A stretch of 34,376 nt of DNA from Pricia sp. (lineage in GTDB: Bacteria; Bacteroidota; Bacteroidia; Flavobacteriales; Flavobacteriaceae). The number at the start of each line of letters is the position of its first letter. The stretch's first letter is position 1. Of this stretch, positions 5,523 to 34,376 are shown piece by piece. The stretch is from contig JAGXIC010000278.1 of the NCBI GenBank assembly GCA_024635875.1, positions 1 to 34,376 of the forward strand, written 5' to 3'. The translations under genes and the position numbers were made by a program. Under the pieces are notes generated by a model. That model was not told where the DNA came from. It saw nothing but the letters and a program-made list of their open reading frames with translations, and searched no databases.

Positions 5523-6008
5523 ATGAAAAAAATACTGGTAGTATTTGCCTTGTGCGGATTGTTTATCGGCTGCGGCGAATCGAAAAAGGAAGAAAAGAAA
5601 GAAGGTTTTGAAATGAACCGTACCAAAACCGTCGACAAAGCGACCGAAGTCCAAGCGGAAGGCGTACCCGTAGATATGGAAAATGAGGGCGTCGGCCCGT
5701 TCAAGGATATTTCCTTTAACAGCGACATCAACCAAGAACTGGCTTCCGCCGGCGAGGCCAAGTACAAAGCCATATGCACCGCGTGCCATATGGCCGAAAA
5801 ACGTATGATAGGCCCTGCCCTTAAAGGCGTCTACGAAAGAAGAAATCCGGCCTGGGTGATGAACATGATTATCGGTCCCGACAAAATGCTCAAGGAAGAC
5901 CCTATTGCAAAGGCATTGTTAAAGGAGTACAACAATGCCATTATGTTGAATCAAAATTTATCCGAAGACGAAACGCGACAAGTTGCCGAGTACTTACGGA
6001 CGTTGTAA
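5523..6008 (+). CDS. monoheme c-type cytochrome lipoprotein
   Basis: Lipobox MKKILVVFALCGLFIGCGESKK; heme motif CTACH; Met-containing C-terminal cytochrome fold ending VAEYLRTL. Confidence 0.88.
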   Translation: MKKILVVFALCGLFIGCGESKKEEKKEGFEMNRTKTVDKATEVQAEGVPVDMENEGVGPFKDISFNSDINQELASAGEAKYKAICTACHMAEKRMIGPALKGVYERRNPAWVMNMIIGPDKMLKEDPIAKALLKEYNNAIMLNQNLSEDETRQVAEYLRTL

Positions 6009-16611: not shown

Positions 16612-17220
16612 ATGGCTTTTGATCTACCAAAATTACCCTATCCATTTGATGCATTGGAACCCAATATCGATGCCCGCACCATGGAAATACATCATGATAA
16701 ACATCATGCGGGCTACACCAGTAAACTAAACGCGGCCATTAAAGGTACAGATTTGGAGGGGAAGAAGATTGAGGATATCCTCAAAAATTTAGATATGTCG
16801 AAGACGGCCGTTCGTAATAACGGCGGCGGGTTTTATAATCACTCGCTATTCTGGAAAATAATGTCTCCAGACGGCGGAGGTAAACCCTCCGGGGAGGTTG
16901 CCAAAGCTATAGATGCTGCTTTTGGTTCTTTTGACAGTTTCAAAGAGAAGTTTAGCGACGCTGCAGGTTCACGATTTGGATCAGGCTGGGCTTGGTTGTG
17001 TGTGCACAAAGGTGGAAAAGTGGAAATCTGTTCCACCCCCAATCAAGATAGTCCGTTAATGCCGGATACCGGTTGTGGCGGTCATCCGATTTTGGGACTT
17101 GACGTATGGGAGCATGCCTATTATCTCAACTATCAGAATAAAAGACCTGAATATATCGGTGCGTTTTTCAACGTAATCAATTGGGATGAAGTAGCGAAGC
17201 GATATGCCGACGGCAAGTAA
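16612..17220 (+). CDS. sodA: superoxide dismutase, Fe/Mn family
   Basis: [40 protein letters not shown]...GSGWAWLCV...[20 protein letters not shown]. Confidence 0.96.
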
Positions 17221-17245
17221 ACGTTAAGTATTGTTTTAAACTGTA

Positions 17246-17279
17246 AAGCTCGGAACCAAAAATGGTTCCGAGCTTTTTT
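17246..17279 (+). terminator. intrinsic terminator downstream of sod
   Basis: AAGCTCGGAACCA-aaaa-TGGTTCCGAGCTTTTTT, long perfect stem plus T-run. Confidence 0.9.
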
Positions 17280-17440
17280 ATTGACCAATACGTTTTAAGT
17301 TTCAATCGCATTGCATCAGCTTGTATGCCATTGACAGACCCGCTGCCCTGCAGCAGGGTTAAGCCGTTTAAATCCGATGGGTTGATTCGACCAGCCATTT
17401 TGTAATCTGCCGTTGGCAATTATAAAATGAAATCCGTTTA

Positions 17441-17517
17441 AAATAGAAAAGGGCGGAGAAGTCTCCACCCTTTTCGTCCCAAATCTTACCATAAACTTAA
17501 CCTACTTATGCTATGGC
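17441..17517 (-). ncRNA. tandem small-RNA-like element, copy A
   Basis: Minus strand: near -7 box TATTTTTA (17522-17529), core CCATAGCATAAGTAGGTTAAGTTTATGGTAAGATTTGGG, stem GGGTGGAGA/TCTCCGCCC (one wobble), TTTTCTATTTT. Confidence 0.65.
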
Positions 17518-17647
17518 AAGGTAAAAATACTAGTATTGAAACGAATAAAAAAGAAATTTTCTTAAAATTTATGGTTTTTTTTATTAGAATTTGGGGTAAA
17601 TCTCAGTTCTAATTGGGGATATCCTTTCCTTTTATTGGGTTTTGGAC

Positions 17648-17721
17648 AAATAAAAAGGCGGAACAATTGCTCCGCCTTTTCCCCAAATCTTACCATGAAC
17701 TTAACCTACTTATGCTATGGT
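17648..17721 (-). ncRNA. tandem small-RNA-like element, copy B
   Basis: Minus strand: -7 box TATTTTTG (17726-17733), core CCATAGCATAAGTAGGTTAAGTTCATGGTAAGATTTGGGG, stem GGCGGAGCAA/TTGTTCCGCC (G-U), TTTTTATTT. Confidence 0.7.
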
Positions 17722-17954
17722 TCTCCAAAAATACAGCAAGGTTGGTGGTTTAAAAAAGGTTTTAGATGAACAGCAGTTTCTTCGGTTGAAATGCAAGAAT
17801 CAAACAGGTTTGGTTCGGAGTGCGCTAAAACAATTAGAAGATTTTTTAGCTTTTAATATTTTTTAGAGAGGGAGAGATTTATTTATATGGCAAGATGGAA
17901 CTCTAAATTAGAGACCGCGCCCGATGGCGGGTGACAAAAAACTGTCCTTATACA

Positions 17955-18029
17955 AAATAAAAAGGCGGAGCAAATTGCTCCGCCTTTTCCCCAAATCTTA
18001 CCATGAACTTAACCTACTTATGCTATGGT
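17955..18029 (-). ncRNA. tandem small-RNA-like element, copy C
   Basis: Minus strand: -7 box TACATTTG (18034-18041), same core, stem GGCGGAGCAA/TTGCTCCGCC, TTTTTATTTT. Confidence 0.7.
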
Positions 18030-18182
18030 GAGACAAATGTATGGCAGAAGATGTACGGTAGAAATTTTATTTGTTGAAGGGGATGAAAATGGGATGAAGT
18101 GCTGGGAATCAATTCTGACAAGCTATTGTCAAATATAATTAGACTGCGCTCTACGGTAAAGTGATAGCCCGGGGTTTTATTC

Positions 18183-18258
18183 AATAAAAAAGGTGGAGAA
18201 GTCTCCACCTTTTTTGCCCCAAATCTTACCATGAACTTAACCTACTTATGCTATGGTA
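18183..18258 (-). ncRNA. tandem small-RNA-like element, copy D
   Basis: Minus strand: -7 box TAAATTTG (18263-18270), CTTACCATAGC...CATGGTAAG hairpin, core ...GATTTGGGG, stem GGTGGAGA/TCTCCACC, TTTTTTATT. Confidence 0.7.
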
Positions 18259-18386
18259 AGCTCAAATTTACTTTGAGAATGTCGTTAAAGCGCCGAAAAG
18301 ACGATATAAAACGTAAATTATCGATGAAATGCATATATACATGTAGATCATCGATGGGAACCCAGCGGTAGGCACATTGAAGCGGT

Positions 18387-20285
18387 TCAATACGCCCGTT
18401 CGTTCTTGCCCTCGTAAAAATTGATAAAGGCTCTGTTGACCACTCGATTCCCTCCAGGAGTGGGATAATTTCCCGTAAAATACCAGTCCCCAAGGTTTTT
18501 TGGGCAGGCCTGATGCAAATTTTCTATCGTCTGATAAATAATCTGTACCTCGGCATTAATGTCATCGGGACTCAATAATTCCCCGATTTTTTGGGAAATT
18601 TCCTGAGCGGTAAATGGCGCATAGAAATCCTTGACGTAGTTAATGACATCGACATCCCTTGAATGGGCCTGTGCCATGCATTTGTCATAGATATCGTCTA
18701 CCACGTTCATGGTCAAGCGTTCTTGATGCAGGGCCAACCCCGCCTTGAAGGCAATAAAATCTTCTAGCTTGGCCATGTCGATACCATAGCAGTCGGGATA
18801 ACGTATCTGTGGGGCCGAAGAGACTACGATTATTTTTTTCGGCGATAGTCGGTCCAAAATGCGGAGAATACTCTTTTTCAGCGTGGTGCCACGAACTATG
18901 CTGTCATCTATGATGACCAAATTATCGCCCTTATCGACGGATCCGTACGAGATATCGTAAACATGTGCCACCAAATCGTCCCTGCTGCTGTCTTGCGTAA
19001 TGAAGGTGCGCAACTTGGCATCCTTTATGGCCACTTTTTCGATACGGGGGCGTACTTCCAGAATTTCATGTAGCTGCTCGCTGGTAATTTTTGTTCCTAT
19101 GGAAAGAATCTGTTCTTCCTTTCTCTTATTAAGATAATTCTGCGCCTCTTTCACCATACCGAAAAAAGAGGTTTCGGCCGTATTGGGAATATAGGAAAAT
19201 ACCGTGTGTTTAATGTCGTTTTCTATGGATGTCAATATCTGGGGAAAAAGAAGTTTCCCCAACATTTTACGTTCCTGATATATTTCCTTGTCACTGCCCC
19301 GTGAAAAATAGATGCGCTCGAAAGAACAGGCCTTTCGTTCTACCGGGGACAAGATTTCTTTTAAGGATGTTTTTCCATTCTTTTCTACAATGATGGCATG
19401 CCCCGGATCCAGTTCCATAACCTTTTCGTAAGGCACGTTGAACACGGTCTGTATGGCCGGTCGTTCGGAAGCAATGGCGACTACTTCATCGTCTTGGTAA
19501 TAGTAGACCGGACGGATACCAGCTGGATCCCGCAATACGAAGGCGTCACCATGACCTAGCAGTCCGGCCATGGCATAGCCACCATCCCAGTTTTTGGCCG
19601 CCCTTCTTAAAATCTTATGCACCTTTAATCTTTCCGCGATCAAGGGCGAAGCTTCCTGTTTGGTATATCCTTCCTTTTTTATCTGTTTGTAGAGCTTGGC
19701 AACGGCATCATCTAAAAAATGACCTATTTTTTCCATCACGGTGACCGTATCCGCCATTTCCTTGGGGTGCTGCCCTAATTGAATCAGGTTGTCGAACAGC
19801 TCGTTTACATTGGTCATGTTGAAGTTTCCGGCGATGATCAGGTTCCGGTGCATCCAGTTGTTCTGCCTTAGGAACGGGTGTACGTTCTCGATACTATTTT
19901 TCCCGAAGGTACCATAGCGCACGTGCCCCAACAGCACCTCCCCGATATAGGGAATATGCCTTTTCTGCATGGCGACGTTGTCAGCATATTCCGGATGGGC
20001 CAACAGCGTTGTATTGATACGGTCATTGATTTGGTCGAAAATGTCCTGAATGGGCTGTTGTGCCACGGAGCGTACCCGGCTCATGTAGCGCTCGCCGGCC
20101 TTCATATCCAATTTGATACTGGCAAAACCGGCACCGTCCTGACCACGGTTGTGCTGCTTTTCCATCATCAGGTACATCTTGTTTACGCCGTAGAAGGCCG
20201 TACCGTATTTTTCCTTATAATATTCCAAGGGTTTCAACAACCGGATCAAAGAAATACCACATTCGTGTTTAATAGCGTCGCTCAT
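18387..20285 (-). CDS. extended PurF-type amidophosphoribosyltransferase (class II glutamine amidotransferase + PRTase)
   Basis: 632 aa; MSDAIKHECGISLI, KQHNRGQDGAGFAS (Ntn GATase), LLGHVRYGTFG, PRPP loop VIIDDSIVRGTTLKKSI. Confidence 0.85.
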   Translation of the reverse strand: MSDAIKHECGISLIRLLKPLEYYKEKYGTAFYGVNKMYLMMEKQHNRGQDGAGFASIKLDMKAGERYMSRVRSVAQQPIQDIFDQINDRINTTLLAHPEYADNVAMQKRHIPYIGEVLLGHVRYGTFGKNSIENVHPFLRQNNWMHRNLIIAGNFNMTNVNELFDNLIQLGQHPKEMADTVTVMEKIGHFLDDAVAKLYKQIKKEGYTKQEASPLIAERLKVHKILRRAAKNWDGGYAMAGLLGHGDAFVLRDPAGIRPVYYYQDDEVVAIASERPAIQTVFNVPYEKVMELDPGHAIIVEKNGKTSLKEILSPVERKACSFERIYFSRGSDKEIYQERKMLGKLLFPQILTSIENDIKHTVFSYIPNTAETSFFGMVKEAQNYLNKRKEEQILSIGTKITSEQLHEILEVRPRIEKVAIKDAKLRTFITQDSSRDDLVAHVYDISYGSVDKGDNLVIIDDSIVRGTTLKKSILRILDRLSPKKIIVVSSAPQIRYPDCYGIDMAKLEDFIAFKAGLALHQERLTMNVVDDIYDKCMAQAHSRDVDVINYVKDFYAPFTAQEISQKIGELLSPDDINAEVQIIYQTIENLHQACPKNLGDWYFTGNYPTPGGNRVVNRAFINFYEGKNERAY

Positions 20286-21400: not shown

Positions 21401-23287
21401 TCAAGCCTCTCGCGCTGCCGTGGCATATTTATCCTTAACGTTGTTCTCTATCCACTTTAGGCAATCCGTAAAATTATCGAAAATATGTTCTTTGGGAATG
21501 AGATCGGGAACCATATCTACCCGCTCCATCATATAGCGCGGTTGTTTTAGCACATCGACCAGCAGCACATTGATGCCTGATTTCTTCAGGTCGATTAGTA
21601 CATCTTCTAAGGTGTATAGGCCCGATTGATCCATGTACTGCATCCGGTCCATGCGAATGATGACCGTTGACGCCGTTCTAGGAATCTGGTCGGCCAATTG
21701 CTGAAACTCACTCGTTGACCCGAAGAACAACGGCCCTTTGATGTGCTTGATAAAAACCTCTTCCTTAAACCTTTTGGGGAAATTTAACTCATCGGCCCAT
21801 CCATCTTCCTTATCCAAAGCTTTTACGTCGGAACGTTCAGCAGTAAGGTCGCCCATTTTTTTCATGAACATCAACGAGGCGATTACCAGACCTACGCCTA
21901 CCGCATAAACCAAATTCCACACCGAGGAGAGCACCAAAACAATCAGCATAATCACGACCTCGGAACTGAATTTTATCGGGCCTAGGCTCATGTCTTTGGG
22001 CAGACTGGGTATGGCTTTTAGTCCCTTATAATCCATCACCCCTATGCCTACGGTCACCAAAATACCGGCGAGTACGGCAGCGGGAATCTGCGAGGCGACC
22101 GGGCCTAATGCCAAGAGAATAATCAATAGCAGCACGCCGGCGATCATACCCGACAATTTGCTCTTACCGCCTGCATTGATGTTTACCACCGTTCTGATCG
22201 TTGCGCCGGCACCGGGTATGCCGCCGAAAACCGCGGCGATACTATTACCGATACCCTGCCCGACCAGTTCTTTATTGGGCTGGTGCTTGGTTTTGGTCAT
22301 GTTATCGGCCACGACCGAGGTCAATAGTGAATCTATGGCCCCTAAAAGCGCCAGGGTCAACGCCGTAAATACGTAGGGCGTGACCGTACCCAGCTCGAAT
22401 TCAGTAAATATACCTAGATTGGGCATGGGAAATCCGCTAGGTATCTGCTCGATGGGACGATACTTCAATCCGAAACCATAGGCAACTCCCGAGACTACTA
22501 CCAAGGCGACCAGGGCACTCGGAATCGTAGTGGTTATCCGTTTAAAACCATAAATAATGATGATAGTGGCCAACGCCAAGATCAGTTCGAGCCAATTGAC
22601 GTTTTTTAATGCCCTGGGAAAAACCTTGATGGCCCCTATGACTCCCGATGCTTCCGTCTTGGCCAAGGTTTGGGCTTCTTTGAGCATATCATCTTCGGTA
22701 ATCTTCTTGGCCCTTTTTATGGTCTCCTCAAAATTCTCTAAAACTAAAATACCTTCCCCTGCTTCTTCCTTTAAAATATTATCAAGAATGATTTCTTCGG
22801 CCTGTGGTTTGTATTTGCTGACAAAATCTTCATCTTCTTTTGGATAGTAACCAATGGCCGGCAAAATCTGAGTTACCAAAATGATAACACCGATAGCGGT
22901 CATAAAGCCCGAAACTACGGGATAGGGAATATACCGAATATACTTACCGATACCCATCAACCCGAGGCTGATCTGCATTAGCCCTGCCAACAGAAAGACG
23001 ATCAGTATAGCGGGTAAGGCTTTTTCAAGACTTCCATCATTAGCAGCTACAATACCGGCAATAACCACCATACTTACGGCGGTCATCGGCGCGGTAGGCC
23101 CCGAAATCTGAGTGTTCGTACCCCCGAAAAGGGCGGCGAAGAAACTGATGAAAATAGCACCGTAGAGTCCGGCGCTGGGACCCATGCCCGAACTTACGCC
23201 GAAAGCAAGTGCCAAGGGAAGGGCAACGATACCTGCGGTAATTCCACCAAAGAGGTCGCCCCTTAGGTTCGCAAATAGGTTTTTCAT
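21401..23287 (-). CDS. SulP family transporter with STAS domain (copy 2)
   Basis: MKNLFANLRGDLFGGITAGIVALPLALAFGVSSGMGPSAGLYGAI; C-term STAS (STVIIRMDRMQYMDQSGLYTLEDVLIDL). Internal ATG 23287 preferred because the ORF start lies inside the upstream terminator. Confidence 0.92.
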   Translation of the reverse strand: MKNLFANLRGDLFGGITAGIVALPLALAFGVSSGMGPSAGLYGAIFISFFAALFGGTNTQISGPTAPMTAVSMVVIAGIVAANDGSLEKALPAILIVFLLAGLMQISLGLMGIGKYIRYIPYPVVSGFMTAIGVIILVTQILPAIGYYPKEDEDFVSKYKPQAEEIILDNILKEEAGEGILVLENFEETIKRAKKITEDDMLKEAQTLAKTEASGVIGAIKVFPRALKNVNWLELILALATIIIIYGFKRITTTIPSALVALVVVSGVAYGFGLKYRPIEQIPSGFPMPNLGIFTEFELGTVTPYVFTALTLALLGAIDSLLTSVVADNMTKTKHQPNKELVGQGIGNSIAAVFGGIPGAGATIRTVVNINAGGKSKLSGMIAGVLLLIILLALGPVASQIPAAVLAGILVTVGIGVMDYKGLKAIPSLPKDMSLGPIKFSSEVVIMLIVLVLSSVWNLVYAVGVGLVIASLMFMKKMGDLTAERSDVKALDKEDGWADELNFPKRFKEEVFIKHIKGPLFFGSTSEFQQLADQIPRTASTVIIRMDRMQYMDQSGLYTLEDVLIDLKKSGINVLLVDVLKQPRYMMERVDMVPDLIPKEHIFDNFTDCLKWIENNVKDKYATAAREA

Positions 23288-23334
23288 TTCAATGCCTGAA
23301 TTATAAAATTTAAATATATAACCGTTTGAGGAAC

Positions 23335-23365
23335 AAAAAAAGCCAATTTTAAAATTGGCTTTTTT
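23335..23365. terminator. bidirectional terminator-like palindrome between carbonic anhydrase and SulP copy 2
   Basis: AAAAAAAGCCAATTTTAAAATTGGCTTTTTT; 18-bp perfect palindrome GCCAATTTTAAAATTGGC flanked by A and T runs. Confidence 0.85.
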
Positions 23366-23394
23366 AAACAATATACTACATCAACTTGTCTTTA

Positions 23395-24024
23395 TCAGAT
23401 AAAGGTAATCATTCCGTTTTTGATATCGTACATCGCTCCAACAATCTTTACTTCCCCATTGTCTTCCATTTCCTTAAGAACAGGGCTCATCAAGCGTGTG
23501 TTTTCAATGGTCATACGTACATTTTTCTCGGCTACTGCATTGACAAAGTCCAAATTTTTTGAATTTCGGAGGTTCTTGTCAGAAGGCTCATTTACGGCTT
23601 TGACCGCAGGTTTGATTTTATCGAGAAGCAAGGTGAGATTGCCCAATTTCGCGTCATCGCAGGCCCCTTTTACCGCACCACAGGCCGTATGGCCCAAAAT
23701 AACGACTACTTTTGTGCCCGCAAGCTTACAGGCAAATTCAATACTACCCAGAATATCTTCATTCACAACATTTCCCGCCACCCTTGCGCTAAAAATGTCG
23801 CCTACTCCTTGGTCGAAAATCAACTCTGCGGACACCCTTGAATCGATGCAACTCAATATGGTGGCAAAAGGGTATTGGCCTGATGCCGTATCATCAACCT
23901 GCTCCAACAGGTCACGATCGGCTTTTTTGTTCGCTACAAACCTTGCATTACCTTCCTTTAAAAGTTGTATTGCGGAGTCCGGTGATAGGGCGGCCTGTGT
24001 TTCTCTTGTATGTGCTTTCATCAT
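23395..24024 (-). CDS. beta-class carbonic anhydrase
   Basis: 209 aa; CIDSRVSAELIFDQGVGDIFSARVAGN and ILGHTACGAVKGA zinc-binding motifs. Confidence 0.95.
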   Translation of the reverse strand: MMKAHTRETQAALSPDSAIQLLKEGNARFVANKKADRDLLEQVDDTASGQYPFATILSCIDSRVSAELIFDQGVGDIFSARVAGNVVNEDILGSIEFACKLAGTKVVVILGHTACGAVKGACDDAKLGNLTLLLDKIKPAVKAVNEPSDKNLRNSKNLDFVNAVAEKNVRMTIENTRLMSPVLKEMEDNGEVKIVGAMYDIKNGMITFI

Positions 24025-24107
24025 AGTTATTTAATTTATTTGATTTATAATTAGAACTTGTCTTGACCTTTAAAATGACCTTATCGCCGCCGATATGTTA
24101 AACCCAT

Positions 24108-24917
24108 TCACTTTCCCGAAACCAAAACCGATGCGCTCGTTTTATTGATGATGTGCCCTATATCGGATAACTTTAAGACTCTTTCATCGTCCGAACCGTT
24201 CCTTACCCTTCTCAAATATAACAAGTCTACCTTATTTTTCGATATATACTTTGAAAGGCTGTTTATCGCACCATCACTGTATTCGAAAACATATTCAATG
24301 ACCTCTTTGTTTTGCGAAAGTGTTTTGTTTTTTGAAGCATTCGAATTTTTAACAAATTTAAACGATTTGATCGGCTTTAGAACATGCGACATCAAATCTA
24401 CGGCGAATTCTAAATTCATGGAATGCCCCGAATCGTTCAAAACGCCAAAAGACAATTTCTCTCCCGGCTCCAGGTCATGTTCACCCGAAGCAATTAGTAC
24501 CGGTCCGTCGAAGGTTTCCAACACAAATTCCGTGATACCATCACCAATGAAACTCAAGGGCTTATATTTTCGTCTTCCCAAGACGATGATGTCAGGGGAG
24601 TGCTCTTTGATGTAGTTGCTGATTTCATCTTTTATATTTCCAAAAACGAACGAATATTTTATATCAATTTCTTGGCTCTTTGAAATTGGAGCTATCAGTT
24701 CGCTTAATTGCCTGTCGATTGCCGAATGTTCAGTATTAATAGACCTCATGGCAGACAACTGATTATCAATGTCCACAATTTCAGTGGGTCTTTTTATATT
24801 GAAGATTGTTATCTCACCATGGATTATTTTGGCAAACTTGACCGTATTTTTGAGCATCCTATCCGTAACATTGTTCAAATCTGACAGTACCACTATTTTA
24901 TATGTTCTTTTTTTCAT
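24108..24917 (-). CDS. universal stress protein family (two-domain Usp-like)
   Basis: 269 aa; KIVVLSDLNN start, SPDIIVLGRRKYKPLSFIGDGITEFVLETFDGPVLIAS typical Usp C-motif. Confidence 0.8.
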   Translation of the reverse strand: MKKRTYKIVVLSDLNNVTDRMLKNTVKFAKIIHGEITIFNIKRPTEIVDIDNQLSAMRSINTEHSAIDRQLSELIAPISKSQEIDIKYSFVFGNIKDEISNYIKEHSPDIIVLGRRKYKPLSFIGDGITEFVLETFDGPVLIASGEHDLEPGEKLSFGVLNDSGHSMNLEFAVDLMSHVLKPIKSFKFVKNSNASKNKTLSQNKEVIEYVFEYSDGAINSLSKYISKNKVDLLYLRRVRNGSDDERVLKLSDIGHIINKTSASVLVSGK

Positions 24918-24923
24918 GATTTC

Positions 24924-26516
24924 TTAGCTTAAGCTTATATCAGATTTGGGCCTTTCTTTGAAGAACTGGAAAAAATTATCGGGGTTTTCTGCCACACCAC
25001 GTTTTGAAACAAGCTTTATATCAATGTTTCTCTCTTTGGCCTTAAAGGAGAAATCATCCAGAATTTCGATAATATCGTTATCTAAATATCTAGTTTTGAT
25101 AAGATCTAGTTCCAAATAGGTGTCCCTTGGCAAACTTTCGAGTTCTTTGAGAATTGCGCCTTTATTAAAGAATGTGACTTCTTCTGCCAGTGACATTTTT
25201 ATTTTATGCTTCCCATCGCTTTTATCCTCAATATGGAGAAAATGGGAGTTCTGATAGCTTTTCAATAAGATAACCACAATACCTACAGCGAGGCCAAGTC
25301 CGATTCCTGTTAATAAGTCGGTAAACACAATGCCCAAAACCGTTACGGCGAAGGGGATGGATTGTTTCCAGCCCAATTCATACATTTTTTTGAAAAGTGC
25401 CGGTTTTGCCAGTTTATAGCCCACAACGAATAGGATGGCCGCCAAAACCGACAAGGGAATCATATTCAATAAATTAGGAATCAAAATGACCGAAATTAAT
25501 AATAAGAAACCATGTATTATGGCCGACATTTTTGTTCTTGCACCTGACTGTATGTTTGCGGAACTACGTACTATAACCTGTGTAATCGGAAGTCCGCCAA
25601 TCATTCCTGAAATAACGTTTCCGGCGCCTTGTGCCAATAATTCCCTGTTCGTGGGCGTTACATTTTTATGCGGATCTAATTTATCAGTGGCTTCGACACA
25701 AAGGAGCGTCTCTAAACTCGCAACCAAAGCAATGGTAAAGGCCGTAATCCAAATTTCCGGATTGGTAATAACCGAAAAATTAGGAAAACTGAACTGATTG
25801 AGAAAGGAGGTGGCGTCATCAGGAACCGGCACACTGACCAAATGAGACTGTTCGATGCCCAAAGTATCACTAGATTTTGTGAGCACGTAAAAAAGAATTC
25901 CTAAGACCACTGCCACCAAAGGACCTTGTACAATTTTAAAGAATTTAGCTTTCTTGGCTAAAATATTATCCCAGAGTAAAATGACGAGTAGGCCAACTAT
26001 ACCTATAATCATTGACCCAAAGATGATGTTGTCCGATATATTCAGAATGGCGGAAAAGGTATTTTCCCCATCAGCATAAAAAAAACTGGCAGCACCTTCC
26101 GCCTCAGCGTCATATCCAAAAAAATGCGGTATCTGCTTTAAAATTATAATAATCCCTATACCCGTAAGCATACCTTTGATAACGGAAGAGGGAAAATAAT
26201 AGCCAATAATACCTGCCTTCAGAACTCCAAAACCAATTTGGATCACACCGCCCAAAACCACGGCCACAAGAAAATTTTCAAAGCCGCCTAAAGTACCGAT
26301 GGCGGTTAAAACGATAGCAGCAAGACCAGCTGCCGGACCACTTACCCCAATTTTCGAACCGCTTAACGCGCCTACTACAATACCACCTACAATACCTGCA
26401 ATTAAGCCAGAAAACAATGGTGCTCCGCTAGCAAGGGCAATGCCTAGGCAAAGCGGCAGCGCCACAAAAAATACGACCAGACTAGCTGGTAAATCACTTT
26501 TTAAATGTTTGAACAT
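24924..26516 (-). CDS. SulP family transporter (copy 3) with divergent C-terminal STAS-like domain
   Basis: 530 aa; MFKHLKSDLPASLVVFFVALPLCLGIALASGAPLFSGLIAGIVGG; C-term ILKELESLPRDTYLELDLIKTRYLDNDIIEILDDF. Confidence 0.92.
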   Translation of the reverse strand: MFKHLKSDLPASLVVFFVALPLCLGIALASGAPLFSGLIAGIVGGIVVGALSGSKIGVSGPAAGLAAIVLTAIGTLGGFENFLVAVVLGGVIQIGFGVLKAGIIGYYFPSSVIKGMLTGIGIIIILKQIPHFFGYDAEAEGAASFFYADGENTFSAILNISDNIIFGSMIIGIVGLLVILLWDNILAKKAKFFKIVQGPLVAVVLGILFYVLTKSSDTLGIEQSHLVSVPVPDDATSFLNQFSFPNFSVITNPEIWITAFTIALVASLETLLCVEATDKLDPHKNVTPTNRELLAQGAGNVISGMIGGLPITQVIVRSSANIQSGARTKMSAIIHGFLLLISVILIPNLLNMIPLSVLAAILFVVGYKLAKPALFKKMYELGWKQSIPFAVTVLGIVFTDLLTGIGLGLAVGIVVILLKSYQNSHFLHIEDKSDGKHKIKMSLAEEVTFFNKGAILKELESLPRDTYLELDLIKTRYLDNDIIEILDDFSFKAKERNIDIKLVSKRGVAENPDNFFQFFKERPKSDISLS

Positions 26517-26968: not shown

Positions 26969-27727
26969 TTAAAAATCCTTCAGCAGTTTGATGTCCTCAG
27001 AAGGAATCCACCCCATAGTACCATCGGCTATTCGGATTTTTTTCCATTCGTTCAGCTCGTCGAGTACGATTACCTTGGTGCCTTCGTGAAGGGCAAAGGC
27101 TTCTTGGCTTGTTTTGTTGGGCTCCGATTTTACGCTTGCTTCCTGGGCAAACACGATGGCGGGCCGGTCGGCCTTGAAAGCATTGTATTCCAAATAGGCG
27201 AATACCAAGGATACGATTGCGATAAAAAGGGAAACGATACTCAAGACAAATGCCGAACGCTTGCGCGACGAATACCGAAAATAGTAGAAGGCGATGTAGA
27301 GCAGTACAAAAAGAACAACAAAGACTACGGCAACATAGCCCCATTGGTCAAAGGAAAGAAAACCGAGAAGGCTATTGTAGATTTTAGCGAACCCCGTTTC
27401 CGGCATGGTTTCGATGGCATCGAGGGTCATATTCCGCGCATAGGAAAGATTGTTCCTGATTTCGGAATCGTTAGGCTTTAATAAAAGGGCCTTTTCGTAA
27501 TAGTAGATGCTGGGCGCTATCTGGTTCAATTTATAATATGCATTACCCAGATTGTAATACAGCTCGGGAGAATGCTGGCCACTATCAAGAATTTTAAGAT
27601 AACTATCAACGGCAGTTTGATACTCCCCGGCGTTGTACGCCTCGGTGGCACCGTCGAAAATGACCTCGTTTTGGGCAGCGACCGTGAAGGTTATCAGAAT
27701 AGTTAGTATGCGGACTATTTTTTTCAA
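26969..27727 (-). CDS. batE: BatE-like TPR + SH3-type domain membrane protein
   Basis: 252 aa; TPR (AGEYQTAVDSYLKILDSGQHSPELYYNLGNAYYKLNQIAPSIYYYEKAL), two TM segments, SH3-like C-term (KVIVLDELNEWKKIRIADGTMGWIPSEDI). Confidence 0.85.
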   Translation of the reverse strand: MKKIVRILTILITFTVAAQNEVIFDGATEAYNAGEYQTAVDSYLKILDSGQHSPELYYNLGNAYYKLNQIAPSIYYYEKALLLKPNDSEIRNNLSYARNMTLDAIETMPETGFAKIYNSLLGFLSFDQWGYVAVVFVVLFVLLYIAFYYFRYSSRKRSAFVLSIVSLFIAIVSLVFAYLEYNAFKADRPAIVFAQEASVKSEPNKTSQEAFALHEGTKVIVLDELNEWKKIRIADGTMGWIPSEDIKLLKDF

Positions 27728-27952
27728 TGGTTATTATTTAAGATTCAAGCAAACATCATTTATTGTTTTATTATATTTTTATTCGTTGTCTTCGTAATCG
27801 TATTGAGTCCTTCGCGTGACACTCGCATCCCCACTTTTGAACGTAAGCTAGTAAATACAGACCGTAATTATAGTACTTAGGCAGTGCCCTAAATCACTAC
27901 TACTATTTTCCTTTTATACTTCGCACCACTAAGTTCATACCTCCTACTTTTC

Positions 27953-29725
27953 TCATAACTGTTTATCCAGCTGTGAGATTACCGCGCTGGCACTGTCATA
28001 ATCCTGCTGCATTTGCACTTCCGAGAACGGACTATAACGCGCCATTTCACAATTCTTGAGCAAGGCGATAAAGCCGTCCTTGGTCGATTCGTCAACCCCT
28101 TTTTCGTCCAATAGGGATGCAATCTTTTCTTTGTTAAACTCTGAAGTCTGTATTTTGAGCTTGGCCTTTAAATAGTTATGCAAGCCTTTTTCAAGAGCGA
28201 TGTAAAAAGGTTCCTTATTGCCAAGTTCCTTTCGGGCCTTCGACAAATATTTCCTGGCGAGTTTATTGGCCCTTCGAATTCGGTTACCGGCCACATCGCC
28301 GGCGATAGCCTCCCGTTTTTTTCCAAAAATGATCGCAAGGGGAATTAGCAACAGGGGCAACAGCAACCACAGATAGAACCGGGTAGACCCAAAAAAATAG
28401 TTCGTACCGATAGCGGTCAGGTGGGGCTTCAATTTTATAAAATTGAACTGGTTGCCAGTGGCCACGGACTGTTTTCCGTTTGAATTTTGTGCATCGAATA
28501 TATCGTTCGCACTAGTAGGCCCTTCCTTAACGTTGATTAGGATTTCTTTGGAAGTAAGCGTTTTGTAGCTTTCTATATTGGGGTCAAAATAAGTGAACGA
28601 GATAGATGGCATGGGATACTTACCTCTAAAAGAAGGTACAATCGTGTAGTTGTTGCTCACCGTTCCCTGGGTACCCGAAAGCGTGGTTCGGACGCTTTCT
28701 TCAAATTCGGGTTCGTACACCTCCAATGAACCGGGTAGAATGGGTTTGGGAAGTTGAAAAAGTTTTAGATTGCCCTTACCGCTCACCTGCACCTTGGCCT
28801 GTAACGATTCGGAAGCATTGAGATGGGTCTTGCTTGTGGTTACAGAAAAGTCGAATTTACCTACGGCACCACTAAAATTGACCGGCTTGCCTTTTTCGGG
28901 CAAAGGTTTTACGTCAATGGTACGGTTGCCTGCCGACACTGTTTTAGTAGTCTGCGAATAGATACGGCCCCCGAAAAAATCGCGTTGGTTTGTCGGCACA
29001 TCGACAGATACTTCGAGAGAGAGGGGTTCGATTTCCAGTTTTCCGGATTTCTGTGGATAGAGCACTACCCTTTTCAATATTACGTAGCGATAGGGCTTGC
29101 CATTGTAGGTGCCATTTTTCACATCGGGTCTGGAAACAGGAATATCCTGGCTCCAAAAGTTATTGTACTTCGGATTGTCAAGCGGTTGATAATTAGAGAT
29201 ACTTATGGCCGGACTGATATACATTTTGTACACCACACTCAAAGCTTCGTTAAGATAGGGGTCAGTCTTGGAAACCTCGGCCACCAGATGCAAACTTTCG
29301 TCCGCCACGTCGTCGGCCGTCATTTCATCGCTCGGCTTGTCCACGGCAGGAGTGACCTCAACTTCTTTAGGAGTCGATTTATAGGTCTGACCGTCGATTA
29401 CGATGGTAGCCTGTTTTATGGTGAACCGACCTTGTGACCTTGGTGCCAAGGTATAGGAATAGGTTTTGGAATAACTGCGTACCCCATTGACCCATGATGA
29501 ACTTATAGATTGTGAAGGCCCCATAAGTACCCGAAAACCGGTAAAATCAGGCGGGTTGAAGTTATCCCCATCTTTGTTCATGGCAAAGTCGACCCGCAGC
29601 CTTTCGTTGATACCAAGTTTGTCTTTACTGAGTATCATCTCGAAGGTAACGGCATCGCTATCCTGTGCTTTTAGTACGATAGCTAAAAACAACAAAGGAA
29701 TCAGGGTGATATACCTCTTTAACAA
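27953..29725 (-). CDS. batD: BatD family protein
   Basis: 590 aa; signal peptide, VSVDVPTNQRDFFGG, VSGKGNLKLFQLPKPILPGSLEVYEPE typical of BatD. Confidence 0.9.
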   Translation of the reverse strand: MLKRYITLIPLLFLAIVLKAQDSDAVTFEMILSKDKLGINERLRVDFAMNKDGDNFNPPDFTGFRVLMGPSQSISSSWVNGVRSYSKTYSYTLAPRSQGRFTIKQATIVIDGQTYKSTPKEVEVTPAVDKPSDEMTADDVADESLHLVAEVSKTDPYLNEALSVVYKMYISPAISISNYQPLDNPKYNNFWSQDIPVSRPDVKNGTYNGKPYRYVILKRVVLYPQKSGKLEIEPLSLEVSVDVPTNQRDFFGGRIYSQTTKTVSAGNRTIDVKPLPEKGKPVNFSGAVGKFDFSVTTSKTHLNASESLQAKVQVSGKGNLKLFQLPKPILPGSLEVYEPEFEESVRTTLSGTQGTVSNNYTIVPSFRGKYPMPSISFTYFDPNIESYKTLTSKEILINVKEGPTSANDIFDAQNSNGKQSVATGNQFNFIKLKPHLTAIGTNYFFGSTRFYLWLLLPLLLIPLAIIFGKKREAIAGDVAGNRIRRANKLARKYLSKARKELGNKEPFYIALEKGLHNYLKAKLKIQTSEFNKEKIASLLDEKGVDESTKDGFIALLKNCEMARYSPFSEVQMQQDYDSASAVISQLDKQL

Positions 29726-29789
29726 AATCCTACTTTATTTAAACCGTTTACGGCAGTTACATCTAGTATTAACCAACAAATGACCCGCA

Positions 29790-30650
29790 TTACCAATCCT
29801 TTTCATTTTTGACCTTTACCCCTTTCACTTTTTGGGCATCTATTTTTTCCTGAACTTTTTTCTCCTCGTTCTGCATGGCATCCAACAGGTTTTGTACCTG
29901 CTGCCTGCTCAATTGGTCGGGGCGGCGCTGCTGGGGCTGTTCCTGTTCATCGCCCTCTTCGGGTTTTTTCTCCTGTTCTTTTTTTTCGTTGCCTTCGCCC
30001 TCTTTATTATCGTCTTTCTTTTCCTCGTTTTCGTTGCCCTCGTCTCCTTTGTCGCCTTCGTCCTTTTTATCTTCTTTGTTCTCGTCTTCGTTATCGCCCT
30101 CTTTTTTATCCTCGTTTTTGTCTTTTTCGTCCTGTTTGTCCTGCTCGTTTTTATTATCTTGGTTTTGGTCGTTCTTTTGTTCGTCTTTTTCCAACATTTC
30201 TTTAGCGAGTGCCAGGTTATACCGGGTCTCTTCGTCGGTGGGGTTGTTGCGTAAGGCTTCTTTATACGCCTCGACGGCCTTTTGGTAGTCCTTTCGCTTC
30301 ATGAACACATTGCCCATATTATGGTAGGCGACATGTTTTTCTTCCTTATCGGTAGCGAGTTCCCCGGCCTCCTTAAAACGGCCGAAGGCTTCGCTGTAAG
30401 TTTCGTTGTTGTAGTATGCATTTCCCAAATTGTAACGGGCAGCGGCATTTTCATCGCTTTTGGCAATGGCGCGGCGATAATCCATCTCGGCGTCCACAAA
30501 TTTATCTTCGGAAAGCTGTTTGTTGCCTTCCCAAGTCAGGTCTTTGGATTGCTCGAGGGCTTTTTGCTTCGCTTTTTCGTCGTCTTGGCCGAAGGCAAGG
30601 CAGCTTATCAGTGCTATTAGAAATGTTAGTTTTAAGTTCATATGCTTCAT
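29790..30650 (-). CDS. batC: BatC-like TPR protein with long acidic/lysine low-complexity tail
   Basis: 286 aa; signal peptide, tandem TPR (ARYNLGNAYYNNETYSEAFGRFKEAG), Glu/Asp/Lys-rich tail. Confidence 0.85.
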   Translation of the reverse strand: MKHMNLKLTFLIALISCLAFGQDDEKAKQKALEQSKDLTWEGNKQLSEDKFVDAEMDYRRAIAKSDENAAARYNLGNAYYNNETYSEAFGRFKEAGELATDKEEKHVAYHNMGNVFMKRKDYQKAVEAYKEALRNNPTDEETRYNLALAKEMLEKDEQKNDQNQDNKNEQDKQDEKDKNEDKKEGDNEDENKEDKKDEGDKGDEGNENEEKKDDNKEGEGNEKKEQEKKPEEGDEQEQPQQRRPDQLSRQQVQNLLDAMQNEEKKVQEKIDAQKVKGVKVKNEKDW

Positions 30651-30691
30651 TTAATCGACATGGTTTACCGTTTGTCCTTTGCTCCAGGAAC

Positions 30692-30795
30692 GGTTTAAGG
30701 TTTAAATCCGCCAAAAGCGGGTTCAAAATTTAAGGTTCAAGTCGATGCAACATTAAACTTTGAACAGCAGCTTAGCTGCGATTGAACCTTAAACC
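30692..30795 (+). repeat. ~104-bp dispersed repeat, copy 2, with 14-bp imperfect terminal inverted repeats
   Basis: GGTTTAAGGTTTAA (30692-30705) and TTGAACCTTAAACC (30782-30795), 13/14 complementary; internal hairpins CCGCCAAAAGCGG and GCAGCTTAGCTGC. Confidence 0.65.
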
Positions 30796-30872
30796 AATCG
30801 AGCGTCAATTTCGAGGCCTGTCGCCAGCCTCATCGTAACTACCGACTGCAACTGCCATTGCCAACTTTTTCA

Positions 30873-31919
30873 CTACTGTACGTCCTTTTCATTGAACAGG
30901 TTCAACTTTCGTAACCACTTCGTCTTTTTTTCCAAGGTAAAAACATCCAAAAATAAAAATAGGAATCCTGTCCCCAAAAACCACTGGAACTGATCCTTGA
31001 ACTCGGCGAACTGTTTGGCCTCGAATTCCTTTTTATCCATCTGCAACAATTGTTCCTTAATGAATTCAACGGCTTCCCCTGTATTGTCTCCGTTGATATA
31101 TTCCCCGTTACCTTCATCGGCGATGTCCTTTAGAAAGGTTTCGTCCAGCTTTGTGATGACGGTTTCTCCTTTGTTATCCTTTTTCAAACTTTCGACTACG
31201 CCATTTCTTTTTATAGGGATAGGGGCACCTTTTGTTTTGCCAACACCAATAGTAAAAATACGTATCCCCTCGTCGGTCGCCTTTTCTACGGCCTCTATAG
31301 TCGACTCCCCAGAATGGTCTTCGCCATCGGAAATGATGAAAAGCACCCGATTCGTCTGTTCTTGGTCGTTGTAATAGGTGGTCGCCAATTCAATAGCTTG
31401 GTCAATCGCCGTACCCTGGGAAGTGAGCATCTCGGTGTTCATGCTTTGCAAAAACATCTTGGCCGCGCCATAGTCGGTCGTAATCGGCAGTTGTGGAAAT
31501 GCTTGCCCAGCATAGGCGATAATTCCGATACGGTCGCTGGCCAATTGATTGATTATTTCGGAAACCAGCCGCTTGGACTTTTCCAACCGGTTGGGCGCAA
31601 TATCCTCCGCCAACATACTTTTGGATACATCGATTGCAAAAACGATATCGACCCCTTCGCGCTTTACCGTCTCCAACTTCGTGCCGATTTTCGGATTTAC
31701 CAGTCCCAAGGTCAAAAAGGACAGCCCTAGTAACAAGAAAAATAGCTTCAGCCCCGATTTGAATTTAGATCTATCGGGCGTGAGCCGTTTCAATAACACC
31801 TCATCGGCAAAGGTATTCCGCGTGCGTTTTCTCCAGAGTTGCAGCAGGAAGAACAAGACGACAAGTACCGGGATTATCGCCAGCAGATAGAAATATATTT
31901 TTTCGTCTAATTGAATCAT
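30873..31919 (-). CDS. batB: BatB, VWA-domain membrane protein
   Basis: 348 aa; MIDAS-like DIVFAIDVSKSMLAEDIAPNRLEKSKRLVSEII; LFIISDGEDHSG. Confidence 0.9.
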   Translation of the reverse strand: MIQLDEKIYFYLLAIIPVLVVLFFLLQLWRKRTRNTFADEVLLKRLTPDRSKFKSGLKLFFLLLGLSFLTLGLVNPKIGTKLETVKREGVDIVFAIDVSKSMLAEDIAPNRLEKSKRLVSEIINQLASDRIGIIAYAGQAFPQLPITTDYGAAKMFLQSMNTEMLTSQGTAIDQAIELATTYYNDQEQTNRVLFIISDGEDHSGESTIEAVEKATDEGIRIFTIGVGKTKGAPIPIKRNGVVESLKKDNKGETVITKLDETFLKDIADEGNGEYINGDNTGEAVEFIKEQLLQMDKKEFEAKQFAEFKDQFQWFLGTGFLFLFLDVFTLEKKTKWLRKLNLFNEKDVQ

Positions 31920-32067
31920 TGTTTAAAGTTCAAGCGCAAGTTCAAGTATCAAGTTCAAATATTACTGGATTACAATTAAAATAATCGAATCAAAAGTTTT
32001 GAATCTATAGGTTTCATTAGGATTTTACAGATTCAATTTTATAAACTTATAAACCCATAACCCTTTT

Positions 32068-33066
32068 TTATATAAAACTCCGAAACAGCGTATTTCGCAA
32101 CACCCATTCCAATAGGAGCAAACCCCCTGCCAAAAGCACCCAGGAACGGAATTTTTCTTCGTACCTAAAGTACTTGAACTCTTCTATATCTGTTTTTTCG
32201 AGTTTGTTGATTTCCTCATAAATCGCTTCCAGTTTCTCGTTGTCCGTAGCCCTAAAATATTTTCCGCCGGTGACTTTGGCGATATCTTTCAGTAATTCTT
32301 CATCAATCTCTACCTGGCGCATGCCGTAACGAAACGAACCATCGGCGTTATAGGCGATGGGCGATAGGGCATTACCGTTCGTGCCGATAGCTATCGTGTA
32401 CGTCTTAATACCGTATTCAATCGCAAGATCTGCCGCGGTCTGTGGCTCGATAAAACCGGAATTGTTGACTCCATCGGTCAACAGAATGATGATCTTGCTT
32501 ACGGCTTTGCTTTCTTTCAACCTGTTGACCGATGTGGCCAGCCCCATACCGATGGCCGTACCGTCGTTCAATTGCCCATACGTTATATCACGGAGCGAAC
32601 TGAGTACAATGGCCTTGTCGCTCGTAATAGGCGTTTTCGTGTAGGCCTCACCGGCATAGGCCACAAGACCGATGCGGTCGTTCGGACGTTCTTTGATGAA
32701 ATCTCCCGCAACTTCTTTCAAGGCCGTAAGGCGATTGGGTTTCAGATCACGCGCCAGCATACTCGATGAAACGTCGATGGCCATAACGATATCAATGCCT
32801 TTTGTGGTCTTGGTTCTCGTAGAAATATCCTCGGTCTGGGGGCGCGCCATTGCCGTTATGATAGCCGTTAGGGCCAAAAGACGCAGTACAAACAGGAAGG
32901 GCTTCAACCTCGGAAGAAACCCCGACCCCGAAAAACCTTTGATAGTGGGCATTTTCAGTGAGGCCACCTGTTCCCTGCGTTTGTAGAAATACCACAAGAC
33001 GGCCAGAGGAAGCAACAATAGCAACCAAAAGAATTCCGGATTTGCGAATGTTATATTTTCAAGCAT
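32068..33066 (-). CDS. batA: BatA, VWA-domain membrane protein
   Basis: 332 aa; DIVMAIDVSSSMLARDLKPNRLTALKEVAGDFI; ILLTDGVNNSG. Confidence 0.92.
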   Translation of the reverse strand: MLENITFANPEFFWLLLLLPLAVLWYFYKRREQVASLKMPTIKGFSGSGFLPRLKPFLFVLRLLALTAIITAMARPQTEDISTRTKTTKGIDIVMAIDVSSSMLARDLKPNRLTALKEVAGDFIKERPNDRIGLVAYAGEAYTKTPITSDKAIVLSSLRDITYGQLNDGTAIGMGLATSVNRLKESKAVSKIIILLTDGVNNSGFIEPQTAADLAIEYGIKTYTIAIGTNGNALSPIAYNADGSFRYGMRQVEIDEELLKDIAKVTGGKYFRATDNEKLEAIYEEINKLEKTDIEEFKYFRYEEKFRSWVLLAGGLLLLEWVLRNTLFRSFI

Positions 33067-33162
33067 TTAGAGACTGATTTGAAACATCCCGATTATTTTT
33101 TTATACCTTTTTTTGCGCAGTACGTCGTTATCCCGAACGGTAGGGATTGAACCGTAACACCC

Positions 33163-34376
33163 TTAGACCTCCGTTTTTACTTCTACCGTGTTCAGTATGC
33201 GTTCTACGATCTGTTCGGCATAGGTGTCCCCATCGGTCCAGGTCAGCATTACCTGTTGTTGAAAACCTTTTCCGCCGAAAATCAGCAAACTGTATTTACC
33301 CTGTACCGCTTCTGGGGAATCGGGTACGGCAAACTTTGCGCTTCCATATATCTTAACCCCTTTTACGCCGGTGACCGTTGTGAATTCCTCGTCTTTCGTG
33401 ATGATATTTTTGGCGCCCCTGCTTTCCATATCTTTGACGAAGGCGTCGATAGATTTCTCATAATCCGGTTCCGTTTCTTGTGAAAGCAAGGTGGAGACCG
33501 CGCTAATCGAGAATAAGCCGTTGGGGCTTTCATATTGAAATACCTGCAATTCCTGTAGGTTCGCCTTTTGTTCAGGTGAAATCTCTTTTTTCTGCCTTTT
33601 CAACACCTTGGGGGTTTCCAGACTTATCGGTGGATAGCCATAGGTGCTCGCAATCCACTCACCTTCAAGCAAAGTCTTTGTCGGATGGCCGAATACGGAA
33701 TCCATTACTGGGGCGAAGCCGTATTTGTATACTGCAATACCTGTGGTAACCAGCAGAAAAGCGATGGCCGCCGCCGCTGCAAAAACAATTTTACGACGTT
33801 GCTGTTTGTGCGCCTGTTCCTCTTTATATTCCTCCTTTTCCATAAGCTCTTCTAGCGTAGGTTCGGGCAGGGCATCGTGTGTCTTGGTAACGATTTCTTC
33901 GATAGATTTCGGGTCGTTCTGCGCCATTGAAGATTCCGGTCGCGACTTTGCGAACTTGACCAGGTCGGCCGTTTGCAAGATACGTTTGAACTGCTTCAGG
34001 GTGTCGTCTTCCAGTTTCAGTTCGCCGGCATCCCGAAGCATTTCCAATTTATAGATCAGCTCATCGGTGGTACTTTCCATGGCGGACACGTGTACGTCTT
34101 CCTCGAGGTACAATCGCACGATATCCGTAAGCTCGGAATAATATTGTTTGTATTCGTCTTGGATAAGGTATTTGGAATTCTCCAGTTTTTTCAGTTCCAA
34201 CAGCGCACGGTCATAGGCGGGCAGTAGGGCTACTTTTTCCTCTTCGGATAACCGTTTTTTTCGGAAGACGAACCAATAGAGAAGTCCGCCGACAACCGCT
34301 AATCCCAAAAGGATACCTAAAACCCACAACCAAAGTTCGGAACGGCTTTTTTCGACCTCCATCAAGGGTTTGATAT
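33163..34376 (-). CDS. Bat-operon-associated membrane protein, partial at right window edge
   Basis: The frame stays open upstream of 34365 (I-K-P-L-M-E-V-E-K-S...), so the N-terminus lies beyond the window. TM segment LWLWVLGILLGLAVVGGLLYWFVF, coiled region, second TM. Confidence 0.75.
   Translation of the reverse strand, partial: IKPLMEVEKSRSELWLWVLGILLGLAVVGGLLYWFVFRKKRLSEEEKVALLPAYDRALLELKKLENSKYLIQDEYKQYYSELTDIVRLYLEEDVHVSAMESTTDELIYKLEMLRDAGELKLEDDTLKQFKRILQTADLVKFAKSRPESSMAQNDPKSIEEIVTKTHDALPEPTLEELMEKEEYKEEQAHKQQRRKIVFAAAAAIAFLLVTTGIAVYKYGFAPVMDSVFGHPTKTLLEGEWIASTYGYPPISLETPKVLKRQKKEISPEQKANLQELQVFQYESPNGLFSISAVSTLLSQETEPDYEKSIDAFVKDMESRGAKNIITKDEEFTTVTGVKGVKIYGSAKFAVPDSPEAVQGKYSLLIFGGKGFQQQVMLTWTDGDTYAEQIVERILNTVEVKTEV

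Follow-up and report, generated by a model that had tools for sequence, protein, structure and literature searches.

The gap between the convergent genes sodA and purF-like in the window (the whole stretch of 34,376 nucleotides analyzed here) contains four minus-strand copies of a putative small RNA (sRNA) gene, and the best model is that they belong to a LytTR-activated, Hfq-free and trans-acting sRNA family of the Flavobacteriaceae, a reading that we consider rather probable. According to this model the copies would be four genes of one trans-acting sRNA of about 75 nt, each transcribed independently. New are a direct-repeat operator, a separate promoter class (class A) and a candidate regulator of this Flavobacteriaceae-wide sRNA, which lacks an Rfam family. 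An earlier note on this DNA was sound on the units themselves, but overlooked the operator, the candidate LytTR regulator and the fact that copy A belongs to a class of its own.

Layout of the array in the window

The predicted features of the region are as follows:

16612..17220, plus strand: sodA, Fe/Mn superoxide dismutase (Pfam Sod_Fe_N/C), convergent neighbour of the array
17440..17521, minus strand: sRNA gene copy A, sod-proximal, class A (R1 covariance score 86.2 bits; fold)
17446..17475, minus strand: terminator hairpin of copy A (fold)
17522..17529, minus strand: -7 box of copy A, TATTTTTA (read from sequence)
17530-17550, minus strand: class-A-promoter-like stretch of copy A, CAATACTAGTA, resembling CAATACcAGTA
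17648..17725, minus strand: sRNA gene copy B, core and terminator (84.8 bits; fold)
17726..17733, minus strand: -7 box of copy B, TATTTTTG (read from sequence)
17757..17794, minus strand: direct-repeat operator of copy B, GCATTTCAACC...GCTGTTCATCTAAAA, 20-bp period (PWM 35.6 bits)
17955..18033, minus strand: sRNA gene copy C (88.6 bits; fold)
18034..18041, minus strand: -7 box of copy C, TACATTTG (read from sequence)
18065..18102, minus strand: direct-repeat operator of copy C (PWM 16.5 bits)
18183..18262, minus strand: sRNA gene copy D, adjoining the purF-like gene (91.2 bits; fold)
18263..18270, minus strand: -7 box of copy D, TAAATTTG (read from sequence)
18295..18332, minus strand: direct-repeat operator of copy D, GCATTTCATCGATAA...ACGTTTTATATCG (PWM 15.0 bits)
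18387..20285, minus strand: purF-like glutamine amidotransferase (Pfam GATase_7/GATase_6), upstream of the array on the same strand

The four minus-strand copies of about 75 nt described in the earlier note proved to be real and lie in register at 17447-17526, 17651-17730, 17959-18038 and 18187-18266. Their near-invariant core was recovered at 17481-17516, 17685-17720, 17993-18028 and 18221-18256 with 0 mismatches when one variable base is allowed, and the proposed -7-like boxes were found on the minus strand at 17529-17522, 17733-17726, 18041-18034 and 18270-18263. Read on this strand, all four units have the same order of -7 box, 5-6 nt, CCATAGCATAAGTAGGTTAAGTTYATGGTAAGATTTGGG, GC-rich hairpin and U-rich tail, and the fold predicted for each copy begins with a hairpin at the 5' end, continues with an unpaired linker and closes with a terminator hairpin whose tail is rich in U. 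The folding energies of the four copies range from -26.7 to -33.9 kcal/mol (z -4.8 to -6.7), and none of 200 shuffled sequences was as stable. A stretch of the sRNA usable as a probe target on the minus strand is AAGTAGGTTAAGTTYATGG. The spacers had been regarded as dissimilar, and indeed they share no similarity longer than 9-10 nt; however, copies B, C and D have the upstream operator in common, which a plain similarity search misses.

Several further observations concern the surroundings of the array. A perfect 14-bp inverted repeat at 17245-17276, directly past sodA, constitutes a stand-alone sodA terminator. The draft genome, which is 80% complete, has a fifth, solitary and degraded copy on a different contig (G000:C291:5751-5823, core 5786-5821); with two core mismatches, a -7 box still in place, a terminator that is weak and the operator missing, it looks like a decaying dispersed copy. 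According to the open reading frames, positions 21401-26516 encode on one strand a SulP transporter, a carbonic anhydrase, a universal-stress-like protein and a second SulP transporter, possibly a bicarbonate uptake operon, and the cluster of TPR, BatD-like and von Willebrand-type proteins at 26969-34365 resembles a Bat (aerotolerance) operon.

Conservation of the unit and its locus in Flavobacteriaceae

A 30-nt pattern of the core (up to 3 mismatches) matched 306 of 399 Flavobacteriaceae genomes and 187 of 237 genera, 'genus' and 'family' being the grouping used by the genome search tool in all counts. As the reversed pattern matched 0 of the 399 genomes, chance is excluded for the core. Among the carriers are Zobellia, Maribacter, Flavobacterium, Aquimarina, Winogradskyella, Kordia, Salinimicrobium, Robiginitalea and others, and the core-pattern search of the family gave 1-7 copies per genome. 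A covariance model added divergent copies in five genomes missed by the pattern, and in order- and class-wide searches its strong matches were confined to Flavobacteriaceae. The order sodA-(sRNA)n-purF, with the sRNA on the purF strand, was found in nearly all loci with flanks, so that the position in the gap between convergent sodA (+) and purF-like (-) genes, already pointed out for the window, is conserved across the family loci. Flavobacteriaceae are a large family of marine and soil habitats and major polysaccharide degraders in the sea. Given that most genera keep the sRNA with an almost unchanged 40-nt core, it is probably a central regulator in these bacteria.

The interpretation as an sRNA gene is supported by the joint conservation of promoter, core and terminator in about 290-360 copies from many genera; the earlier note had named the lack of promoter or terminator features in homologous copies as an argument against it, and homologous copies elsewhere do keep them (292 and 359 copies examined). 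In the alignment of 292 copies conservation extends from CCA to the U-tract, in agreement with the expected start and end, most core positions are invariant, and in most copies a TAnnTTTG-like box is located 5-6 nt before CCA. This motif had been taken as the established -7 consensus, which is correct for flavobacteria (PMC9723704).

Pairing in the terminator was counted per copy, the terminators being unaligned in the MAFFT/RNAalifold approach, and at least 8 uninterrupted pairs are kept in 356 of 359 copies by 128 different arm sequences. The maintenance of pairing through so many different stems argues for independently transcribed sRNA genes. The 5' hairpin folds in 358 of 359 copies, in some of them with shifted or replaced pairs, and its variants pair differently (CCAUA/UAUGG, CCAGAAC/GUUC, UCAUAA/UUGUGG). 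Least variable are the hairpin loop AGUAGGUUAA and the linker GAUUUGGGG. The linker differs between lineages by a 1-nt indel (UAAGAUUUGGGG or UAGAUUUGGGG) and the terminator stem varies in length; therefore, no reading frame is kept and coding of a small peptide was rejected. Judged from their sequence, the units combine the attributes of sRNA genes, namely an own promoter, no coding frame and an intrinsic terminator, and we infer that transcripts of about 75 nt are produced from them. A second subtype of the sRNA (CGTAAGTAGGTTAGGTCTATGG) was observed in Aequorivita and a related MAG (L068:3967, L011:1159, L012:1178), where it adjoins a standard copy, differs in its upstream region and shows hairpin changes that compensate each other.

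These data also bear on two alternatives. The hairpins could be duplicated cis elements that terminate the mRNAs of sodA and the purF-like gene or serve in their 3' processing, and in line with this the array is always found at the 3' ends of both convergent genes, and the terminator of the array lies in some genomes just past the end of sodA, where it may stop both transcripts. Nevertheless, we regard this explanation as very improbable: the units have their own -7 box at a fixed distance and mostly an operator as well, neither of which is needed by a terminator, and the core is conserved far more than the terminator. Furthermore, sodA in the window has its own hairpin terminator (17245-17276), which makes the sRNA terminators unnecessary for ending its mRNA. 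Even harder to credit is that the repeats represent a mobile or REP-like element or a small-peptide gene. A near-identical repeated sequence, an ATG within the core and the stray degraded fifth copy would fit, but the locus is fixed in more than 100 genera, promoter and terminator are conserved while the spacers diverge, and any frame is broken by the linker indel and the variable stem length.

Operator, class A promoter and a candidate LytTR regulator

Upstream of the -7 box and at a constant spacing from it, most copies of the sRNA carry two direct repeats, GCATTTCAnC and GCAGTTYATC, which are 20 bp apart and each followed by an A-rich tract. This operator scores above 10 bits with the PWM in 228 of 292 copies; in the window copies B, C and D have one, and copy A is negative with -9 to -16. 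In the 2.0-Mb genome of Ca. Arcticimaribacter forsetii, the operator of the sRNA is the only site above 20 bits. Activator sites of LytTR proteins stand just upstream of the -35 element and comprise direct repeats of 9 bp separated by 11 to 13 bp, most often 12 (PMC6193735). The same format is present in copies B, C and D of the window and not in copy A, and we infer that a LytTR protein binds at the repeats.

Copy A is a member of class A, which is characterized by a T variant of the core, a linker ending in GGGACG or GGGATG and its own promoter motif; in the window it shows the T variant and the GGGACG end. Within the alignment, where class A stands for 38 copies sharing promoter and linker including copy A of the window, the motif CAATACCAGTA..TTTAG occurs in 32 of the 38 versus 1 of 254 other copies. 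The operator is absent from 44 of 45 class-A copies, a number defined by the linker motif in a listing with up to 7 mismatches that contains false matches. With an own promoter and no operator in class A, one RNA would be made from at least two kinds of promoters. Copy A may thus be driven by a different conserved promoter, which would enable the same RNA to answer two signals, with a dosage that scales with the copy number.

A candidate for the regulator is the sole LytTR protein of four small sRNA-carrying genomes, which forms one orthologous group with proteins of two other genomes. In five of the seven loci read, its gene is flanked by priA and rpsF; the gene of the source genome is found at G000:C257:22617-23300. 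The protein is an orphan with a degenerate receiver, which falls below the Pfam cut-off in some genomes and has its phospho-acceptor position replaced in several. A strong match to the regulator profile was found in 288 of 306 genomes with the sRNA versus 15 of 93 without it, bearing in mind that related genomes are not independent. Based on copies with up to 4 mismatches only, operator and regulator agree in 59 of 61 genomes with a readable promoter, and 54 of these have both. The five of the 61 that lack the operator all keep the sRNA, and the regulator is absent or divergent there. As to exceptions, two genomes (G247, G301) possess the operator and no strong regulator match, one genus (g11) has the regulator with the sRNA undetected, and some genomes carry the sRNA without the regulator. 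Judging from these patterns, one orphan LytTR regulator is apparently dedicated to switching the sRNA on, and copies B, C and D of the window would be activated by it via the two repeats 20 bp apart. Candidate regulator and operator together make the model directly testable.

Mode of action and comparison with known systems

In the proposed mechanism the loop AGUAGGUUAA and the linker GAUUUGGGG, both invariant and predicted to be single-stranded, would base-pair with translation-initiation regions of mRNAs, and this pairing would proceed without Hfq or an RRM chaperone. Hfq was not found in 11 genomes of the family, and RRM_1 was absent from the source genome (80% complete) and from 16 of 17 family genomes, the remaining one of the 17 having one. 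The sRNA is probably also a natural starting point for studying how genes are controlled post-transcriptionally when Hfq is missing. The anatomy of the RNA and the FopS sRNAs (PMC11697453) suggest that it may act as an antisense RNA at translation starts, although none of the predicted targets proved to be conserved.

Target prediction in one genome gave 13 initiation regions with -18 kcal/mol or lower versus 7.2 +/- 3.1 for shuffled RNAs, a slight excess, as 1 of 40 shuffled RNAs also reached 13. The best prediction was a pairing of 19 bp with the start of one TonB receptor in Ca. Arcticimaribacter, which looked FopS-like. SusC/TonB proteins are not enriched as a target class (p 0.94), and the pairing was not seen in the homologues with readable starts, in a comparison that took several minus-strand loci unoriented. 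Pairing energies of orthologue pairs from two genomes showed no correlation (rho -0.01). At the start of sdhB, about half of 30 genomes show a predicted pairing of ATGAATTTAACC with AGGUUAAGUUCAUGGU (-16 to -24 kcal/mol). This pairing with the sRNA core of 13-16 bp was seen in many genomes, e.g. at L202:324-1070. For sdhB as a target this is a weak lead, considering that the encoded MNLT imposes much of the start sequence and that other genomes are without the pairing.

The main rival explanation is that the sRNA binds and titrates a protein, similar to CsrB/RsmZ or 6S RNA, and that many copies serve as more decoy. Loop, stem and linker, together about 40 nt, are nearly invariant, which is beyond the needs of one short seed, the copy number reaches 7, two G-rich single-stranded sites are available and target predictions found no conserved mRNA target. 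On the other hand, each motif occurs once per unit, unlike the repeated sites of CsrB-type RNAs, a multi-target antisense RNA can be constrained equally, and no candidate protein was identified; we therefore assume that titration is unlikely, though less so than the two alternatives discussed above. Returning to the antisense model, a wider version of it describes a family-wide module in which an orphan LytTR pseudo-response regulator is dedicated to a tandem, multi-copy sRNA whose loop and linker would be two invariant seeds for core-metabolism or envelope mRNAs, free of Hfq and RRM chaperones and with a second promoter class. For this complete picture the chances appear evenly balanced.

With Rfam 15 no family reached its gathering threshold in the window, including Flavo-1 (RF01705), which the earlier note had singled out for comparison. 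Flavo-1 is likewise an RNA family of Flavobacteriaceae, but the array has no match to it. A Flavo-1 RNA (83 bits) is present near the sodA/sRNA locus of Flavobacterium swingsii (L070:5116-5193) and represents a separate element. Low-score matches to other families, e.g. STnc40 and MicC, seem to be due to the terminator and were dismissed. The core sequence was not found in the literature searched.

The FopS sRNAs (RF04319) of Bacteroidaceae are multi-copy RNAs of about 65-70 nt, mostly with their own primary-sigma promoters, which consist of a 5' conserved region and a terminator and are bound by the RRM protein RbpB (PMC11697453). The array resembles them as a multi-copy Bacteroidota sRNA with own promoters, conserved 5' region and terminator. 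However, membership in FopS was rejected (19.9 bits, E 2.7 versus a gathering score of 56), the RRM partner is missing from the source and most related genomes, and SusC-type targets are not enriched here. Similarly, Rfp18 and other sRNAs of Flavobacterium psychrophilum are independent transcription units conserved beyond the species (PMC9723704). Rfp18 is the one flavobacterial sRNA with a mutant phenotype found in the literature searched. Rfp18, which is associated with protease targeting, is predicted to pair through its third stem-loop (PMC9723704), whereas our sRNA has two predicted hairpins and, compared by description, appears different; it may nevertheless be among the 85 Rfp transcripts of this species (PMC9723704).

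On the side of regulation, the array is similar to AgrA/RNAIII of Staphylococcus aureus and other LytTR systems in that a LytTR protein would activate the promoter via a pair of direct repeats lying upstream of it (PMC4227749, PMC6193735). In contrast to RNAIII, our RNA is short and multi-copy, and its sequence is unrelated. In contrast to AgrA and other LytTR systems, the orphan regulator has a degenerate receiver and is encoded next to neither a kinase nor a membrane inhibitor, and in the one genome scanned it shows no autoregulation via repeats of this kind. Sets of nearly identical sRNA genes whose doses add up under a single dedicated regulator are also known from CiaR with csRNA1-5 and from LuxO with Qrr1-5. 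Those sets have a regulator of another family and no sequence relation to the array, which is arranged in tandem at one locus and includes with class A a copy outside the operator regulon. Taken together, by its sequence the sRNA is a member of no family tested, but it resembles these multi-copy sets under the control of one regulator.
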